From contig CAIIXF020000008.1 of NCBI GenBank assembly GCA_903813345.2, positions 21,684,822 to 21,748,821 of the forward strand: 64,000 nucleotides of DNA. The letters are read 5' to 3'. This document shows positions 13,202-63,357 of this stretch, in pieces. The notes under the pieces are model-generated. The model saw only the letters and a program-made list of their open reading frames with translations, did not search any database and was not told where the DNA came from. Numbering within the stretch: position 1 is the stretch's first letter; each line of letters begins with the position of its first letter. The position numbers and the translations under genes were made by a program. This stretch comes from Owenia fusiformis. Lineage: Eukaryota; Annelida; Polychaeta; Sabellida; Oweniidae.

Positions 13202-14503
13202 CTGAAAAGAGAACAGTATAAACATATATACTTGAAATTATATTTCTTATTTTCTAATAAATAATCATTAATGAACTAAATTCTCTTGAGATAACTAGTG
13301 ACCAAATCTTGGTAGAATATTTCTTTTTACCACCAAAACACACAGTTCAAAAATATTTGATATAATCCAGTAGGAAGGAGTGTTCCAATGGACCAAAATG
13401 ATGTACATGTATTTTCTATTTACATTTTTATAATCATACCTAAGATTTTGGCATGTTCCTTAAATCAAATATTGTCCCATGGATTTTTGAGGCCATTTTT
13501 TGGCCATCTTTAATTTTCAATGTTATAATGTTAATCAGTTCAACACTTCCATAGTTTTGGGAGTTTAGAGCTATAAATTGTACCCCCAGATTATACCAAA
13601 ATGTTTTTTCAAATTTTTTCAAAGATTTTGCCCTCGTGCCCCATCAGAAATATCTCATAGTAGTTGATGCAATTATATTTGTAATTATGTATTATATCAT
13701 ATAAAAAAATCACCCGAGATAAAAGTATTTTTAAAGTAAGAATGTCAATGTGATCTAATACTTCGTGCATGTAATATATTCAGCCACGGTAACTTTGATT
13801 ATTCATCAGAAACAGAAATAAAAATGTAAATATTCAGCCAATTCATATCAATGGAAATCTATATTCTGAACAATGGATAAGAATGACTTTGAAGCAATGA
13901 TTAATGTATCTCTTATTGAAACAAACTTTGCAAACAATTAACTACAATCAGAAATTATTTCTTAAACAAACATACTGCATCATTTGTATCAAATAGTTTT
14001 CTCAATACTGAAATTGACGACTTGGTACAATCTAATAACATCCGCAGAATCTAATTCACAAACAAGTTATTAAATGCAATCATGATATATACAGCATCGG
14101 TATCCTGAAGACAATTATGAAACGTGCGATAGGCAGACAGATGATGACTTTCATTTCCCTTGCTGATATTTCAATGATACAAATGTAAGAGTTAAGAGGA
14201 AAACAACTCTTTCCATAAACAACATATTGAAATTTTAGCTTGGAGGCCATGAGAGTGGTGACATAAAGGATATTCCCTGGAGATTTTAATTTTTTGTAAT
14301 AGTATTTTACTTTTTCCAAGATCCCAATAGACAAGAATGAGTAGCTGATAAGTTATTGCAAACGGTTACAAAAGTGCAACAATTTGTTAGATTTTGACAT
14401 ATGCCGAAACTGTTCACAAAAATGGTGATTATGCTACTAATGTATCATGTAACTGATATAAATTGTCAATAAAAGATATAATATAATGAATAAATAAGCA
14501 TTT
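13202..14503. other. PRKD intron 2, proximal part, nothing recognised
   Basis: AT-rich, with short open frames only (for example 14080-14334 minus) that lack family resemblance. Confidence 0.45.
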
Positions 14504-15966: not shown

Positions 15967-16761
15967 GCGTAATTTCTAATCAGTGTTCTCCACAGTATTT
16001 TTCCTCAAGTGGGTGCAAAATTGTCATTTTGTTTTTATTAAAATCAATGTAAAATATTTACAGGTTTTAGTGGCTATGACCCCCAAGAGGGAGTATTAGG
16101 TGCCACATAATGGTATTTACAATGATTTGTGAAATATTATAAGAAGTGTACATGTAATATACAACTAAGGCCTTAAAATCTCAGGTGGGTAATGCTTGGT
16201 TTAATGCTGCAGGGAGATCACCTATCAATACATTAAAATTGAATCATAAATCCAGTCATTAATGATATCAACAAAAGACCAATGGTCACACTGTGCTTTC
16301 TGCAAGCTATTTTGGTCAATTTTCATCAACATCTTATCAGGCTTTTTTTACTGACTGTTATAATAATATCAGTATTCTTTGTTCAGCTTTGAGATGATAA
16401 AGTAAATCATATTATCATGATATTATGATCTTCATATGTTACAATATTTAACAATTAGTTAGTTTAACTTAGAGATAATTTTAAAATTAGGAGGTCCATT
16501 TTAGAAATCATAGGAGGCCAAATCAATATATATTAGACTTCTGGTTGCAAATAAATAGTTATATGAAACAGATATTGAATTCAAAGGGAGTTCTAAATTC
16601 TAAATATGCTAAGGATTAATCAAAGGGAATTAATGAAAGGTTGAATCTCAAAAACAGAGGTTAGAGCTAAAATCTGGAAAGTATATGATTTTGATAACAA
16701 ATTAGTCCCCTGTTAGGCCTCCTAGTAATAATAAATGATAATATAGAAAAACTGTACATAC
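15967..16761. other. PRKD intron 2, distal part, nothing recognised
   Basis: No repeat structure or coding signal was seen. Confidence 0.5.
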
Positions 16762-16903
16762 CTGAGCATACTACCTCTACTAACGAGTTTTCTTTCACCT
16801 GACTTGTGGGATTATTAATAAGCACCAATACATTGGAACTTGAAGCATCATGTACAAACAGCAAGATCTTGTCTTGTAGACCATAAAATCCATGTTCTGG
16901 ATA
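16762..16903 (-). CDS. PRKD: PRKD exon 2: N-terminal domain, second half
   Basis: The acceptor is TTTGCAG|TATCCAG and the donor TGCTCAG|GTATGT, 142 nt, phase 0 to phase 1, residues 48-95. EHGFYGLQDKILLFVHD matches the conserved GFYGMYDKILLF-type motif of animal PKDs, and SLVEVV precedes the C1a exon as in the family. A longer open frame around it (16667-17131) reads through both splice sites and is not the real unit. Confidence 0.95.
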
Positions 16904-17503
16904 CTGCAAACAGAGATACAGAGATGATGAGAATATATCCACAGAGCTAATATATTGAGAGAAAATAAAAACAATAATGATGCAAAATACCTGTGATGAA
17001 GCACTGCAAGAGATATCATCTATTAACACCAATATAAAAACATGTTGCAGCGGTAAAGTTAACATGATGATGGAGAATGCAATATGTAATAAATAAAGTA
17101 TTATAAATCTAAAACCTGTTAATATAAACAATATCTTGTTTGTGACGTTCTAAGATTGTAACTGTTGTAACGTTGTAACGTGTGTACATGTGTGTGCAAT
17201 TATTTGAATATACTCGTTTATCTACCTTTAAAGCAGAAATCTTTCCTTATGATGATATGCTATTTCCCTACCTAACATTGCATTTTCAGAAATGTTCTAT
17301 CAGTGAAAGATATCACAGTTATCTGGTACTTAGACTATACAGCCCTTTATTCCTAGCATTGCAAACATTGTGAAAAATCCTGTTTCATGGGATTGAGAGA
17401 TGATCGATGCACTGGAATTGTGTGGAAGTTACAGATACAGTCAATCATGCTACCTTGAATCAGTAATCTGTTCAATCAATGCCATACTGTTAATGACCGG
17501 TTG

Positions 17504-21401: not shown

Positions 21402-22460
21402 AACTAGAAAAACAGCAACTCCACGGAGTAGCAAATCCCACCGAACAAAACATATTATGCTTACTATAGCTAGTGTAAATGTTAAAATGTTTGTGCACTT
21501 TGTGATAGAAGCATGAAATTTGGCACAAAGTTAGTTTATACTATTGTGAACTAGGCATCATCATATAAAATTTGAACCAAATCCGTTCACTGGTATATGA
21601 GTTATCAAAGATTACGTTTTTTACGAAAATTGGCTGCCATCTTGAAAATTATTTCTTGAACAGAGCTACTGTGTCCCTAGGCATAATCATATAAAATTTG
21701 AACCAAATCTGTTCACTGGTATTTGAGTTATCAAAGATTACATTTTTACGAAAAATTGCCGCCATTTTGAAATTAAGTGGCCATCTTGAAATATTTTTGT
21801 CGAACATAGCTACTGTGTCCCTAAGCATCATCATATAAAATTTGAACCAAATCCGTTCACTGGTATATGAGTTATCAAAGATTATGTTTTTTACGAAAAT
21901 TGGTGGCCATCTTGAAATTCAGCAGCCATCTTGAAAATCATTTGTTGAACAGAGCTACTGTGTCCCTAGGCATAATCATATAAAATTTCAACCAAATCTG
22001 TTCACTAGTATTTGAGTTATCAAAGATTACGTTTTTTACGAAAAATTGCCGCCATTTTGAAATTAAGTGGCCATCTTGAAAATTTGTTGTCGAACATAGC
22101 AACTGTGTCCTTAAGCATCATCATATGAAATTTGAACCAAATCCGTTCACTGGTATTTGAGTTATCAAAGATAACATATTTTTACGAAAAATGGCCGCCA
22201 TTTTGAAATTAAGCGGCCATCTTGAAAATCTCTTTTTGTGCGAAACTCCTTTGTCCCTAGGCATCAGCATATAAAATTTGAACCAAATCCGTCAACTTGT
22301 ATTTGAGTTATTAAAGATTACATTTTTTACGAAAAATGGTGGCCATTTTGAATTCAGTGGCCATATTGAAAATTCCTTCTCGAGCAGAGGTCCTACACCC
22401 ACGGACGGACGGACGGACGGCTTTCCTATATCCCTCTCGAACTTCGTTCGGTGGGATAAT
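21402..22460. mobile_element. pearl/Helentron-like non-autonomous element A
   Basis: Left end: GCAACTCCACGGAGTAGCAA, with a small hairpin, then ATCCCACCGAAC (21435-21446). Middle: six tandem units of about 126-146 bp. Then comes a (GGAC)n microsatellite at 22402-22420. Right end: a hairpin of TATCCC..CGAAC and GTTCG..GGGATA (22429-22458), containing GTTCGGTGGGAT, the inverted copy of the left motif. This architecture is the one described for bivalve 'pearl' and Helentron-derived HINE/DINE elements. No coding capacity. Confidence 0.75.
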
Positions 22461-27511: not shown

Positions 27512-29852
27512 AACCAGAACAACGGCAACGCCAAAGCGTAGCGAATCCCATCGAACAGAAATGGCTGGCATTTTTACAAATGAATAGCAAATATCATAAA
27601 ACAACACACCAGAAAGCCCTCCATTTTCAAAATGGTTGCTCACTAGCCAAGTTGTCATCAGAAGAAATAATATGCTTTTTAGCCACCTCTGTAGCCACCT
27701 CTAAAATTTTTGAAAAATCGCACACGTACTTGTAAAATAACACACATAAAAGTGGTGGCCATTTTTCAAAACGGCCGACTACTCCCCAAAGTTTTATTAG
27801 ACAATGTGCCATGTTTAAAGTATTCACATATCAAATATGAACAAAATCACTCCACTACTTTTCGAGTTATAGTAAAATACGTTAAAATGGCGGCCATTTT
27901 TCAAAATGGCCGCCGTCTACCAAAAGTGTCTTTAGACAGTGTACAATGCTTATAGTATTCACATACCAAATATGAACAAGAACACAAATGTCTACAAAAT
28001 GTCCCGACCAATTGGTGATCCCATCAAATGGTTATCCTGAAAATGAGTAGACAAGACTTTACCAACACAATTTGAGGACGGAAAATCCAAAATGGCCACC
28101 TTAAAATTTACCCAGATTTTCAAACTAAGAACCACCCCTGAAAATTTTTAATTGATCCGTCACACAGTTAACTAGAAAACATGTAAACAAGACTTTACAG
28201 ACAAGATTTTAGGATGGAAAATCCAAAATGGCTGCCTTGACATTTACCCAGAATGTCAAAAAACTAATCTGTTCCTAGATTTTCATACTAAGAATCATCC
28301 CTGAAAATATGACATCGATCTACCAAATGGTTCACCTAAAAAGGCGTAGACAAGACTTTACAGACAAGATTTTAGGACAGAAAATCCAAAATGGCTGCCA
28401 TGACATTTACACAGAATGCCAAAAAACTAATCAGATGTAGATTTTCACACTAAGAATCATCCCTGAAAATTTGAAATTGATCTACCAAACGGTTCACCTA
28501 AAAACGCGTAGACAAGACTTTACAGGCAAGATTTTAAGACGGAAAATCCAAAATGGCTGCCTTGACATTTGCCCTGATTGCCAAAAAACTAATCAGTTCT
28601 ACATTTTCATACTAAGAATCATCTCTGAAAATTTGAAATTGATCTACCAAACGGTTCACCTGAAAACGCGTAGACAAGACTTTACAGACAAGATATTAGG
28701 ACGGAAAATCCAAAATGGCTGCCTTGACATTTACCCAGAATGCCAAAAAACAAATCAGATCTAGATTTTTATACTAAGAATCATCCCTGAAAATTTGAAA
28801 TTGATCCACCAAACGGTTCACCTGAAAACACGTAGACAAGACTTCACAGACAAGATTTTAGGACGGAAAAATCCAAAATGGCCGACAATAAAAAAGTGAT
28901 TATGTGTTTTTGCTGATTTCTTCTTACAAAATTATCACATATAACTACTGTTAACAATAACATAGGCTTTTACAACAAAGTACATCTGAAATTATTTATA
29001 AAGCTACTAAATAGTTAAAGTATGAAAAGTCAAAAACACCATTCAATATGATACAAAGTATTAACGTACGCTAACTTTTCTTAAGACATTCAAAATGGTT
29101 GACATGACTGAGCTAACAGGTCCAAAATGTAATCAGATCTAGAATGAAGTGAGCTGAACAAGATTTTAAAGTTTTAAAAGCAACTGTGAAGCCGTTTTTC
29201 TTAAAGTTTGCAGACAAGGATTTTAGCATTTGACTTCAAAATGGCCGACAGGAAGTAGGTATCGAGTTAAAATTTTTTCATCCACATCTGTATGCACTCA
29301 TAAGTTATCCCTGAAAATTTGAAGGTGATATCTGTAGCGGTTTTGGAGAAAACTCCCGGACGTACGGACGGACGGACAGACGGACGGACGGACGTACGGA
29401 CAGACGGACGCGCCTAGGCCGACAATATGGCCCCACACTATGTGGTGTGGGGACATAACAAAATCGCTCAACTATTTTTTGTACAGCAAAAATCGTAAAA
29501 TGACGAGTAAAGGCCGCCATTTTTCAAGATGGCTGCCATGTGCTTCTTTAATATCTACATTTGTAGCATTATTAATGTCCTTTATAATTTCTTTACATTT
29601 AAAACATATTGCTATTACAGTTTTACATATTGCACCTAAATTACTGTAAAATCGGCACTAAAATGGCCGCCATTTTGAAATGAGCGGCCATTTTAAAAAT
29701 CGACTTTCGAGCAGAACTTGTACAAAATATGAACAAAATCTGGCCAACGGTATTTGAGTTATTGCCCGGACGGACGGACGGACGTACGTACGGATGGACG
29801 GACGGACGGAGGCGTTCCCTATATCCCTCCGAACTTCGTTCGATGGGATAAT
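27512..29852. mobile_element. pearl/Helentron-like element C, interrupted by a nested element
   Basis: The left end (AACCAGAACAACGGCAACG, hairpin CGCCAAAGCG, then ATCCCATCGAAC at 27545-27556) is homologous to element A. Internal units contain paired AAAATGGC(C/G)GCCATTTT-type segments. The right end has a (GGAC)n tract at 29767-29808 and a terminal hairpin 29822-29850 containing GTTCGATGGGAT, the exact inverse of its own left motif. Units resume after the nested element: AAATATGAACAA before it and AAAATCGCTC after it rebuild one repeat unit. Confidence 0.75.
27981..29458. mobile_element. pearl/Helentron-like element B, nested in element C
   Basis: The left motif ATGTCCC (27999-28005) is inverted at the right end as GGGACAT (29450-29456). 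About six tandem units with a period of about 160 bp follow, anchored on GTAGACAAGACTTTACAG. Then come a (GGAC)n tract (29355-29410) and a terminal hairpin TATG..CCCCACAC and GTGTGGGG..CATA (29426-29457). A 160-bp core repeat is the length reported for bivalve pearl elements. It is inserted between two A residues of element C. Confidence 0.75.
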
Positions 29853-33481: not shown

Positions 33482-35020
33482 CTACATGTACAGTAGACCA
33501 AACAAAAATAAAATTAAAGGTATGTTTCAAGTTTATCTTTTTTCAGATTCTTCTTCTCAATCCACCTAACTTTCTTTTATTACTGCGATATTGAGAATCA
33601 AATTATTAAAATAGGTTATCCCCGTCAAGTGATCTTTGAGAATAAAAGTTGTGATATATTCCTGCTTTCTAGCATTTTTCTCAACAGATCAGTGATTTGG
33701 ATCTAATTTATGCGTAAACGAATCACAAGAAACTAAAATATATCCAGTGCTTTCCATTCTGAAGAGTATCATTAAGTAAATGGTTAATAAAAATAAATTG
33801 GTTAGTTCCCAGAGAAAAATGTTACGAATAAGCCAGTCTTGTACTTGCTATATTCCTCATATGGTATACCTATCAGCTCCCTAAAGATTAATGCTTGTGG
33901 ATAAATACCAGAAAGAAAGAGATTTACTTGCTGCTTGTATTTAATAATAACTAACCAGGGATTTATAGAAACAGCTTATGGGATCACATAAATCACAATA
34001 AAAGATAAATTCACATTGAAATCTGGGGTAATGTGAACTTTGAAAGGTTGCAAGTACTGTAAATATGGATTCACCCTGTTGAAAGGACGAAACATCAACT
34101 TATTTTGAAAATTGGTATAATTGGGATTTATTATACTGTTGAAAAACTGGGATGTTTTTATATTTTTTAGCTCATATATGTTTGAAATAACATTCCTGAG
34201 ATGCAAATTATATTTCTAGCAGTGTTATTAAATACAAATAGTAACAATTACAGATATCAATACTGTATCTTACAATATTACATTATGGGTACTATCCCTT
34301 GAAAATCTAATAACACAGAGTACTTACTACTGATTTATCTCATTAATACAAAACAGCACCATAGCGATCTAATGATAAGCAATAAACTAGAATCAGATTT
34401 CACTTTCAAAAGGAACATTGTGATATAAATTATCCTTCAGTCTCCATTGCCACTTGTCTTCTAGGTTTTGCAATAAAGAATCACACAGTCTCTAACTTGA
34501 TTTATAAATCATTAAGGAGGTGCTACTTATTGATGCACTGTAGACAGATGGGGTGTTTGCATTCTACATGATGCAAGGATCTTACTGGATCATAGAGTAT
34601 TTGAATAAAATATGACATTTTTTCTATATAATAACAGATTGCACAAACATATGTTACATCACCCCATGATTATGGCAATATTAGTGAAATTATTAATTGA
34701 TAGAAAATCAACAAAAATGATATCTATGATGCACGGAGGTTATACTTGTGTTATTATAACTTTTATTGACATATAGTATCATAACATGATTACATTAGTC
34801 AGAACTATAAAAGTAACATTTTCCTTTTTAGAACATATAAAGAACATCATGAGATAAAATATATCATTGTCATGTGACTTTTCTCCACATCCTGATTTTG
34901 TCAAATCATCAATATTAAGTCAGAACAAGTTTGCTAAATCATGCTGAAATTCATTTCAAGTTATCAATTATAACAATTCACCCACTTATTAAATCATTTA
35001 CTTATTATAGACAAGGCAAT
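33482..35020. other. PRKD intron 1 sequence; expected location of upstream exons, none found
   Basis: I looked here for 5' exons of the 33339-33481 gene and found no convincing one. A short segment near 33840-33895 (minus, GELIGIPYEEYSKYKTGLF) is open but lacks a good donor. Confidence 0.4.
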
Positions 35021-35660
35021 AATGACAAAATGTCACCACCTAGTTGCTCACAATATTATAAGTTCAAAGATTTGAATTTCTGAGAACTCTGTAGATGATT
35101 TTGAAAGAAGGTCAATTTGAAACAAGTTTGTTGACCCTGAGAAGGTCATTGAAGGTAAAAACTCAAATTTAAAGTCAGATTTGAACTTCTGAGAAGATGA
35201 TTTTGAAAAAAATTGGTCAATTGGTTGAAGCAAGTTGAAAAAGACCTTTTTGACCTTGAGAAGGTCATTGGAGGTCCAATCTTTTTTGACCTTGAAAATG
35301 CCATTGAAGGTCAAAACTATATTCAGATTTGAACTTTTGAGAACTTGTAGATGATTTTAAAAGAAAATTGGTCAATTTGAAGCAAGTTGAAAAAATACCT
35401 TTTTTAACCTTTTTTGACCTTGAAAGGTCATCGAAGGTCAAATGTTAATTCTAGAGTCAGATCTGAACTTCTGAAAACTTGTAGATGATTTCAAAAGAAA
35501 TTGAAGTCAGTCTAAACAGTATTTGACTAGTCATTGAAAGTTGTAAGAAATTGTTACAGACGCCGATCGCCAACCGCCAATCACCAATCACCAACCACCA
35601 TCCGCCGTCACAAAAAATGGAGACCAACAATATGTCACCACTTTTTGGTGGTGACATAAA
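35021..35660. mobile_element. pearl/Helentron-like element D with AGGTCA-rich repeats
   Basis: The left motif ATGTCACCACC (35030-35040) is matched by its inverse GGTGGTGACAT (35647-35657). The right end is a perfect 11-bp stem hairpin, TATGTCACCAC and GTGGTGACATA (35631-35658). Inside are four degenerate units of 109-148 bp and, where A-C have (GGAC)n, a 7-bp CCAATCA/CCAACCG-type tract at 35570-35610. It has the same overall plan as elements A-C with unrelated sequence. Confidence 0.7.
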
Positions 35661-46262: not shown

Positions 46263-48042
46263 CACTGGGGATGAACTGGAAACGAGGGAGGTTTTGCCTC
46301 GTATCAAAATGGCGGCGCGTGAAAAAATTTCTTTAGGTAAGATTTTTGTTTTTTACAATTTTCGTGCTTTTATCCTTCAAATTAAAACTTAATATTTGGC
46401 AAGTAAATAGTTTATAAGTTCCGGTTTTATAATATGATTGCAAATTAGAAATCAATACAGACATTGCTGAGATATTTACATTTCAATTCTCTCACTTAGG
46501 AAACGAGGCACCTGTCTACATTTTGTAACAATGAAACGAGGCAATGTTTGACTTGCAACGAGGCAACTATTCTTTCTGTGATAGTGTCTACATTTAATGA
46601 TCTTATTTCCACCGTTCTGGTTACATACGACAGATTACGTTTTACACGATATACATGATTATATATGTAAGAGTTACAGGGATCCACCACCTTACAAAAC
46701 TTCTTAACGGAGAGGAATAAGGGAAAATGCTTGCCGGATTCTGAATCTGTGTATTTTTTAATGATTTTTCACCGTCTTAGAATTTCAATTTTTTTCCTTT
46801 GAAAAAATGAGATTTGCATTGTTTTCCAATTAGAAAAATGAGTAAACGTGAATAGCTCGAAATCTAACGGTGAGATTTTGTTTTAATAAATCATGGATAT
46901 CAAGGCTAAATATAGCTATACAGTAAACATAAAAAAGCAATGCTTGAACTCTTCACATTCACACAAAAAATTAATTGAGGTCTGATATTTGTGAGAATAA
47001 GTTGTACGAGGTGCAATGCTCTACAAACACCAGACTACAGGGTGGATTAGGATCAATGACACACATAAAAATTAATCTAAAAATATTTTATGATAATTAT
47101 CTCAAACAAAAGCAGTTAGCGAAGGATACATTTCATTACACTCAATAAATAGTTATCACTTTTTACTATATATACATATCTCATGGGAATGTATTTCCAT
47201 CTGCTCAAGATATCATATTTTAGCTTCGAAAATCACAATCGTTGGATAATACATTTGTCTCAGAATGATAGGCCACCCTGTAGCAATGTAGCTTTCACTT
47301 GAAGTGTACCCTTGAGAATAATGAACTTACTTTCAAATTGGTCTTGCTTTCGTGGTGTATGTGGCTTTTTAGCAAATCTGCCACGCTCATTTCTTTCCAG
47401 AACCATCTTGTTCAAATGTATCACTATACGCGCATGTATAGACTGATGACATAGATATACATATAAATTTTATGTTATGCCAGGGTAATTATTTTAGTTG
47501 TTTCTCTTTCTTCTATTTTTCAAAATTGATACGGGAATGACGGTTTTTATATTACCTTTTTGTCTATCTAAAATGCTGATGAGGGACGGGATGATTTTTT
47601 TCTTTAAAATAACTGTAAAAACTAATTTTGAAGGAAATAAACTAAAAATACATGCCACATGGTGATTTTAAATGAACAGGGACGCTTCTTTTTATAGGCC
47701 CCGTTCTGTAAAAACAAAACATTTTTAATTAAATATGGTTGCCTCGTTTCATTCTTAAGAATGCTATATAGCTGCCTCGTTTCCTTGAGAAACATGCCTC
47801 GTTTCCTAAGTGAGAGAATTGATATGTAAATATCTCAGCAATGCCAGTATTGATTTCTAATTTGTAATCATATTATAAAACCGGAACTTATGAACTATTT
47901 ACTTGCCAAATATTAAGTTTTAATTTGAAGGATAAAAGCACGAAAATTGTAAAAAACAAAAATCTTACCGAATGAAATTTTTTCACGCGCCGCCATTTTG
48001 ATACGAGGCAAAACCTCCCTCGTTTCCAGTTCATCCCCAGTG
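46263..48042. mobile_element. 1.78-kb foldback transposon with ~249-bp TIRs and 5-bp duplication
   Basis: Near-identical inverted arms (46263-46511 and 47794-48042) start CACTGGGGATGAACTGG and are flanked by CTATT (46258-46262 and 48043-48047). Each arm carries AAAATGGCGGCGCGTGAAAA followed by a good donor (TTTAG|GTAAGA in the left arm), then repeated AAACGAGGCA motifs inward of the arm. A 5-bp duplication fits Transib or hAT5-like families. CACTGGG is one base from the CACWRTG Transib end. No transposase is complete. Confidence 0.85.
47331..47406 (-). CDS. possible first exon inside the foldback element
   Basis: An ATG in context ACAAGATGG begins MVLERNERGRFAKKPHTPRK, then QDQFE, followed by an excellent donor GAAA|GTAAGT. 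A basic RDxxGRF-like start is seen in some transposon-encoded proteins, which is a loose resemblance only. No following exon was found in the element, so it is either a remnant or a splice-ready leader. Confidence 0.35.
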
Positions 48043-60669: not shown

Positions 60670-63357
60670 GCACATGCTATCTATTGCAAGACTTACGCCT
60701 GCCACAACCGTCACCATGTTAATCAGTGTTTTTTAAGTAGCGCAAGGATCCTGCCATGACCGTGGTAGTGTTATCGTGTAAGCCTGGTATAACCGTGACA
60801 GGCTGGTATAACCGTGACAATGCTGTATTCTCTTGCAAGGCCTGTCATGACCCTGGAAGTGTTATCGTGGAAGCCTGGCGCGACCGTAGCCTTTATTGTG
60901 GTTTATAAGCGAATGTGAATATTAATGTATAGTAGTAATTTTGATTTTGACATGATTAAGGTAGTTAAACACCATGATCATAGTATTAAACTGTTTAATT
61001 GTAATGAGGATCACTTAAAATTGTTAAGGATATTCCTGGCATTAATGTCATACATATTTACTAGTCATTGCGATACATTATAACGGTCATAGTAGACCTA
61101 AGCCTAAATCTCTACATTACCACCCTCATACCTGGCCTTGCAATACTATATTACATTGTCACGGTCATACCAGGCTTTGCGATCCCATAATACATTGTCA
61201 TGGTCATGCCAGGTTTTCAAATACACATTGTCACGGTCAATTATAGCAATAATAAATTTATACATTACCACTCTCATACCCGAACTTGGAATACTATATC
61301 ACATTGCCATGGCGGTCATACCAAGCCTTGCAATACTATATTACATTGCCATGGTCATGCCAGGCTTTGCAATACACATTGTCACGGTTATAGCAGTCCT
61401 AATCGTAAATTTCTACATTACCACTCTCATACCTGAACTTGCAATACTATATTACATTGTCACGGTCATGCCAGGCCTTGCAGTACTATATTACATTGTT
61501 ACGGTCATACCAAGCCTTGCAGAACTATATAACATTGTCACGGTCATGGCAGGCATTGCAATATAATACAGCATTGTCGCGGTTATACCAGGCTTTCACG
61601 ATAACATTACCACGGTCATGGCAGGATCCTTGCGCTACTTAAAAAACACTGAATAACATGGTGACGGTTACGCCAGGCGTTAGTCTTGCAACAGATAGGG
61701 TCTCGAAAAATGTTAAAATAAAATGTAGAGGTAAGATTATTTGAATTTAGTCAATTTAGAGTCAATCATGTAAAAAAATCTATGTAATCAAAACCTCTAA
61801 AGATTCATTTTGGTGGAAAACGTTTCAATTTACCGGGAAAGTGTAGAAATATCAATAAAAATAGGAATGACAAATGTAGTTTATTTCAATATTTGTTGTG
61901 GTGGGTGATAATCACGAAACTCCCTCAGTGACCCTTTCTTATTCAAACAAATTTTGCCTGTTCAAACGAACTGACTCATTTCTGAGTGATCGTGATTTTT
62001 TCTTATTGTATGTCATATATAACAATAGTTTTTTCAAAGAATGTACAGGTTTCATTTACTCTAGGCTTCCGAGCTGACAGAAGTCTTTTGAGCCAGCTGT
62101 GTTCAGAAAGGTGTCATAGGGCTCATAGACTAGACTAGTAATTAATGAGAGAGAAATTACATGTAGGCCTAGCTATGTTTGTATGATCTACTACATGTGT
62201 AGTCAAGTCTAAAAGGTGAGGTTTTGATTGATTGCATGGATATGAAAATACACAGTGTTCTTTTATTCTTAATTTAAAATGCATTTAAAGGAACGAAAAT
62301 GGAGACCCTATCTGTTGCAAGACTAACGCCTGGCGTAACCGTCACCATGTTATTCAGTGTTTTTAAGTAGCGCAAGGATCCTGCCATGACCGTGGTAATG
62401 TTATCGTGAAAGCCTGGTATAACCGCGACAATGCTGTATTATATTGCAATGCCTGCCATGACCGTGACAATGTAATATAGTTCTGCAAGCATGACCGTGA
62501 CAATGTAATATAGTACTGCAAGGCCTGGCATGACCGTGACAATGTTATATAGTGCAAGTTCAGGTATGAGAGTGGTAATGTAGAAATTTACGATTAGGAC
62601 TGCTATAACCGTGACAATGTCTATTGCAAAGCCTGGCATGACCGTGGCAATGCAATATAGTACTGCAAGGCCTGGCATGGCCGTGACAATGTAATATAGT
62701 ATTGCAAGGCTTGGTATGACCGCTGTGGCAATGTGATATAGTATTCCAAGTTCGGGTATGAGAGTGGTAATGTAGAAATTTATGATTGTTATAAGTGACT
62801 GTGACAATGTGTATTTCAAAACCTGGCATGACCGTGACAATGTATTATGGGATCGCAAAGCCTGGTATGACTGTGACAATATCATATAGTATTGCAAGGC
62901 CAGGTATGAGGGTGGTAATGTTGAAATTTAGGCTTAGTCCTACTATGACCATTATAATGTATTGCAATGACTAGTAAATATGTATGACATTAATGCCTGG
63001 AATATCCTTAACAATTTTAAGTGATCGTCATTACAATTAAACAGTTTAATACTATGATCATGGTGTTTAACTACCTTAATCATGTCAAAATCAAAATTAC
63101 TACTATACATTAATATTCACATTCGCTTATAAACCACGATACGGTCGCGCCAGGCTTCCACGATAACACTTCCAGGGTCATGACAGGCCTTGCAATATAA
63201 TACAGCATTGTCACAGTTATACCAGCCTGTCACAGTCATACTAGGCTTACACGGTAACACTACCACGGTCATGGCAGGATCCTTGCGCTATTTAAAAACA
63301 CTGATTTACATGGCAACGGTTGTGGCAGGCGTAAGTCTTGCAATAGATAGCATGTGC
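60670..63357. mobile_element. 2.7-kb palindrome of 39-bp repeats
   Basis: Arms 60670-61704 and 62302-63357 are inverted copies around a 597-bp non-repetitive spacer. The outer ends read GCACATGCTATCTATTGCAA and its inverse. Each arm is itself bounded by inverted ends (CAAGACTTACGCCTGCC-type) and filled with tandem copies of a 39-bp unit (TGCAAGGCCTGGCATGACCG, then TGACAATGTAATATAGTAT). No clean target duplication. It is probably a foldback transposon or an inverted duplication of one element. Confidence 0.8.

Follow-up and report, generated by a model that had tools for sequence, protein, structure and literature searches.

The reference for the pearl family of bivalves is reportedly Gaffney et al. 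2003. For oyster Helentron-associated elements (HINE), the published description gives an order of 5' subTIR, complementary IR, microsatellite, repeats, 3' subTIR and palindrome (PMC7492417). In the subTIR comparison given there for Crassostrea gigas, perfect subTIRs are in the majority only in Cg_HINE_9 and Cg_HINE_10_13, and in the other HINE elements one mismatch predominates, with perfect subTIRs in less than 50% of the examined pairs (PMC7492417). The inverted repeats of that survey were picked at 90% similarity, so that the sample leans towards matched pairs; this much is from the survey (PMC7492417). As one mismatch predominates in most of the elements, the matching looks to us like a family-level property and not one of every copy. 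In the case of Drosophila DINE-1, the table of Yang and Barbash 2008 holds 14 rows, each with a single subTIR string, and 7 different strings in all, of which one is a register shift of another (PMC2374699). An end mismatch is footnoted in that table for D. mojavensis only, and the accompanying account of the 3' stem infers compensatory mutations (PMC2374699). For two related elements of Culex, Bao and Jurka 2013 described base mutations that compensate each other, and in the model proposed there the pairing of the 5' and 3' ATIRs breaks up the 5' hairpin and determines where replication ends (PMC3627910). As a family criterion, the classification of Thomas et al. 2014 uses an identical subTIR of at least 11 bp (PMC4067079).

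We analysed a window of 64,000 nucleotides from Owenia fusiformis, which carries four elements, A to D, all on the minus strand. Element A (21402-22460, borders approximate) has the features of a non-autonomous, pearl-like HINE. Read along the minus strand, it starts with the 5' subTIR ATCCCACCGAAC (22446-22457), followed by the IR GTTCGAGAGGGAT (22430-22442). This IR is an imperfect complement of the 5' subTIR, with which it would form a 5' hairpin around a loop of 3 bases. Next come a GTCC microsatellite (22401-22420), central tandem repeats with a period of 145 bp in 5.1 copies (21636-22373), the 3' subTIR GTTCGGTGGGAT (21435-21446) and the 3' palindrome ACTCCGTGGAGT (21418-21429). Because this is the order published for oyster HINE, what the first-pass annotation had called the left end is the 3' end of the element. 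Its statement that the two ends are exact inverses holds: in an exact motif comparison, ATCCCACCGAAC at 21435-21446 on the plus strand agrees with the inverse at 22446-22457 in 12/12 positions.

Element C (27512-29850, borders approximate), whose ends are both homologous to those of A and which is interrupted by element B, follows the same minus-strand order. It contains the 5' subTIR ATCCCATCGAAC (29838-29849), the hairpin-forming IR GTTCGGAGGGAT (29823-29834), in which subTIR position 7 pairs T.G, a GTCC microsatellite (29767-29810), the 3' subTIR GTTCGATGGGAT (27545-27556) and the 3' palindrome ACGCTTTGGCGT (27528-27539). Again the ends proved to be exact inverses by motif comparison, ATCCCATCGAAC at 27545-27556 against the inverse at 29838-29849 (12/12). 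Self-comparison revealed central tandem repeats in C and D as well. The repeats of C at 27884-27915 and 29659-29700 include hairpin-forming stretches, e.g. GGCGGCCATTTTTCAAAATGGCCGCC, and similar stretches occur in the repeats of A near 22186.

The ends of element D (35010-35660, borders approximate) are related to those of B. In D, the 5' subTIR ATGTCACCACC (35647-35657) is accompanied by an IR forming the 5' hairpin (35632-35642), which departs from the subTIR in its eleventh base, next to the loop. The 3' subTIR GGTGGTGACAT (35030-35040) overlaps a small palindrome, TGACATTTTGTCA. As had been claimed, these ends are also exact inverses in the motif comparison, with ATGTCACCACC at 35030-35040 matching the inverse at 35647-35657 (11/11). 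A GTCY microsatellite is absent from D, where another short repeat lies at 35561-35606. An IR complementary to the 5' subTIR is found in all four elements, giving hairpins in 4/4.

Element B (27980-29456) is a HINE nested in C, with borders taken from the interrupted C repeat to within a few bases. It comprises the 5' subTIR ATGTCCCCACAC with its IR hairpin (29427-29456), a GTCC-type microsatellite (29357-29410), tandem repeats of period 162 in 4.7 copies (28114-28882) and the 3' subTIR ATGTCCCGACCA (27999-28010); we found no clear 3' palindrome in B. The first-pass annotation had its ends matched through ATGTCCC, and this was not borne out. The two subTIRs, ATGTCCCCACAC and ATGTCCCGACCA, agree in 9/12 positions, 7 of them contiguous, and differ in columns 8, 11 and 12. 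The window shows no enrichment of ATGTCCC itself (7 occurrences against 5.87 expected), for which 0.13 occurrences are expected within 3 kb in one orientation. The 3' motif is found some 19 bases inwards of the edge at which the C repeat breaks off, which makes it likely to be a genuine subTIR that carries mismatches. A C repeat unit aligns to both flanks of B, which have AACAA in common, and since the C repeat continues on both sides, B was inserted after C. As the alignment extends further with two mismatches, the left border of B is uncertain by a few bases. The AACAA at this junction (TTGTT on the element strand), the sole site examined, fits a TT insertion or a 5-bp duplication alike.

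Altogether, the published HINE plan is complete in A and C, whose anatomy fits the published descriptions item for item (PMC7492417, PMC4067079), whereas B and D show only part of it.

Co-variation was then assessed between the homologous pairs A/C and B/D. From the subTIR on, the 3' ends of A and C are identical in 36/45 positions, or in 40/60 over a longer stretch, ungapped, and their 5' blocks differ at few sites. The matched change reported for this pair was recovered as their one subTIR difference: position 7 of the 5' subTIR goes from C in A to T in C, and the 3' subTIR is altered in the complementary way. The IR of both elements keeps a G opposite this position, which pairs with the C in A and with the T in C. 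The local hairpin alone consequently does not require the 3' change, and since the IR retained its G we rejected the IR hairpin as a full explanation of the A/C change. A second change, absent from the first-pass annotation, is located in the 3' palindrome, where ACTC/GAGT in A versus ACGC/GCGT in C represents a compensated T-A to G-C replacement. In the case of B and D, column 6 co-varies, with A at both D ends and C at both B ends, and in columns 8 and 11 the two ends of B disagree with each other; as B has two extra bases, the B/D alignment past column 8 is uncertain. What co-varies in A/C is a single subTIR column plus one base pair of the palindrome, and in B/D it is one column out of three that vary. 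Of the four variable subTIR columns in both pairs, two co-vary (one per pair) and two do not, a ratio by which pairing, shared transposase recognition and templating are not to be told apart.

Duplex energies were calculated with DNA parameters for two strands and for the motifs alone, and so leave out what it costs to close a long loop. For the duplex between the 5' and 3' ends they amounted to -15.4 (A), -14.4 (C), -13.5 (D) and -8.2 kcal/mol (B), and for the duplex between subTIR and IR to -9.8, -9.8, -12.7 and -12.0 kcal/mol, respectively. Swapping the ends of A and C weakened the pairing to -10.6 and -12.0 kcal/mol. Pairing of the ends, one of the two mechanisms raised by the first-pass annotation, is a published hypothesis, set out in the Culex description (PMC3627910). 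The calculated energies agree with a displacement of the 5' hairpin by end pairing in A, C and D, but not in B. In B the end duplex is weaker than the subTIR-IR duplex, which argues against a strict need for end pairing in every copy.

In our reading, which we hold at a probability of roughly 0.87, A-D are non-autonomous HINE whose ends are matched at the level of the family. It starts from what the window displays directly, namely the anatomy, the exactly matching ends of A, C and D, the mismatched ones of B and the compensated 3' palindrome. The subTIRs would serve as cis signals read by the Rep/helicase of an autonomous Helentron. Each family would go back to source elements in which one and the same transposase had to accept both subTIRs, and in which these probably had to suit each other too. 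The 5' subTIR would fold with the IR into the hairpin, with the 3' subTIR as its alternative partner, and a switch between these pairings may take place at termination. For the end-pairing step itself we see about even odds. Selection on active source elements would hold the ends matched while the sequences of the families drift apart, and copies, once inserted, would decay independently. The share of perfect subTIRs below 50% in most of the oyster elements described is as expected of such decay after insertion (PMC7492417).

This bears on what had been claimed from the sequence at first. That the ends are matched to each other stands for A, C and D, which are exact and differ between families, but not for B with its 9/12. 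That the ends are kept complementary in each element is not supported copy by copy, since B is mismatched and mismatches are common in the oyster pairs reported (PMC7492417).

A narrower form of the family-level explanation is shared protein recognition only, in which both subTIRs are bound by the transposase as one and the same site, without any base-pairing between the ends. Shared recognition predicts the same matched changes, and the delimitation of families by subTIR identity, as formulated in the classification, fits it (PMC4067079). However, on its own it leaves two features unexplained, the IR beside the 5' subTIR and the compensated 3' palindrome, which point to single-stranded structure as well. 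We therefore rate recognition without pairing as a serious contender that falls somewhat short of an even chance.

The matched A/C change could also be a coincidence or a product of the reader's selection, which we regard as very improbable. With a first-order Markov model of the window and the place of the motif taken as fixed, the exact occurrences expected within 3 kb in one orientation are 5e-5 for A, 9e-5 for C and 6e-4 for D, so that chance is negligible for these three. Exact inverted pairs of at least 11 nt at distances of 200-6000 bases number 437 in the window against 178-198 per shuffle (words with at least 3 different letters; 5 Markov shuffles). Since such pairs are common here, it is by their anatomy that the ends of A, C and D stand out. 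Coincidence gains some room from the fact that a single subTIR column is involved: given one change per end, the same column and the complementary base would be hit with a probability of about 0.03-0.05. Against it, the 3' palindrome is compensated too. A crude simulation, in which substitution rates of 0.05 (5') and 0.2 (3') were assumed, puts the joint chance that subTIRs and palindrome alike remain perfect once any change has occurred at 4e-5 to 7e-5, a figure that serves as a guide only because the model was picked after the pattern was seen. Moreover, the same behaviour has been published in other species. Cut-and-paste TIRs were rejected as well, the ends being asymmetric and carrying hairpins, like subTIRs.

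Least probable of all is that templated copying or gene conversion between the ends during transposition keeps the ends of each copy identical, the other mechanism raised at first, for which we found no support: it is compatible with the exact matches in A, C and D, but B, nested in C and inserted later, is the mismatched one, the IR and the subTIR of D disagree in the eleventh base, and one mismatch predominates among the copies of most oyster elements described (PMC7492417). Being younger than C and yet mismatched, B argues against a re-matching of every copy, subject to the age of its source element. A route by which the subTIRs would pair single-stranded during rolling-circle transposition, mismatches would be repaired against one end and new copies would be re-matched is equally improbable. 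If end conversion were true, a single step could alter the end sequences and give rise to new families, and a demonstration of it would help to explain the origin of new HINE families.

To complete the picture of the window, further elements and relatives were searched for. Inverted pairs with a nearby hairpin were listed from a score of at least 8; most of them were AT-rich pairs due to chance or lay inside repeats, and among A-D only the subTIRs of D appeared. A and C, we think, fell below this hairpin score because their IR pairing is interrupted, and B was missed by the inverted-pair search because it is without an 11-nt match. Sites with D- or B-like motifs at 14254, 36289, 41843, 2916, 9399, 58877 and 59214 showed no HINE anatomy by eye, and the partial motif AACCCACCGAAC at 56-67 had no second match to the motif nearby. 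A scan of three of the seven open frames of at least 120 aa in the window brought up no autonomous Helentron, and Rfam gave no match at gathering thresholds. An open frame at 16670-17149 on the minus strand matches Pfam PF25525, the ubiquitin-like domain of serine/threonine protein kinase D1 (E 1.5e-13), and by this domain match looks like a PRKD-type exon, which points to animal DNA.

A blastn comparison of the window with 168 loci, obtained by pattern scans of viral-contig and genome-contig collections and covering those patterns only, returned no match at E 1e-3 with the low-complexity filter on. Of these loci, 4 + 85 look, by eye and for want of a GTCC array, like chance matches in phage or prokaryote sequence, and the remaining 79, from viral contigs, were judged by blastn alone.

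The window also holds other repeats. Inverted arms at 60670-61704 and 62302-63357, 91% identical over 1074 aligned bases and each with tandem repeats of about 39 bp, are perhaps a large fold-back type element or an inverted duplication. Between 51486 and 52766 there is a pair of repeats of about 570 bases (85% identical), each partly self-complementary (77% and 71%). An inverted repeat of 248 bases at 46263-46510 and 47795-48042, 97% identical, may represent a mobile element of recent origin or the terminal repeats of one.

Regarding the known systems, the closest likeness is to Cg_HINE/pearl as characterised in oyster: a subTIR of 11-12 bp, a complementary IR, a GTCC-type microsatellite, a repeat array, a 3' subTIR and a 3' palindrome, with element-specific changes in subTIR, IR and stems, a likeness drawn from the described anatomy and not base by base (PMC7492417). 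DINE-1, as described for Drosophila, has as points of likeness the family-specific subTIRs matched at both ends, a partial IR beside the 5' subTIR, a GTCY microsatellite and a 3' stem-loop with inferred compensatory changes (PMC2374699). It differs by its 13-bp subTIRs; its description also includes a conserved core and a TT target, of which the latter is no more than suggested in the window elements (PMC2374699). The Culex elements resemble A-D in the asymmetric terminal inverted repeats, the 5' hairpin and the compensatory changes reported between two relatives, but stem from another host and have another sequence (PMC3627910). The end-pairing reading is a published hypothesis to which the window data add little. 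Family-specific matched subTIRs together with compensatory end changes are a known, already published hallmark of Helentron-type elements, and the four elements of Owenia fusiformis provide a small worked case of the published idea that Helentron ends stay matched while families diverge.
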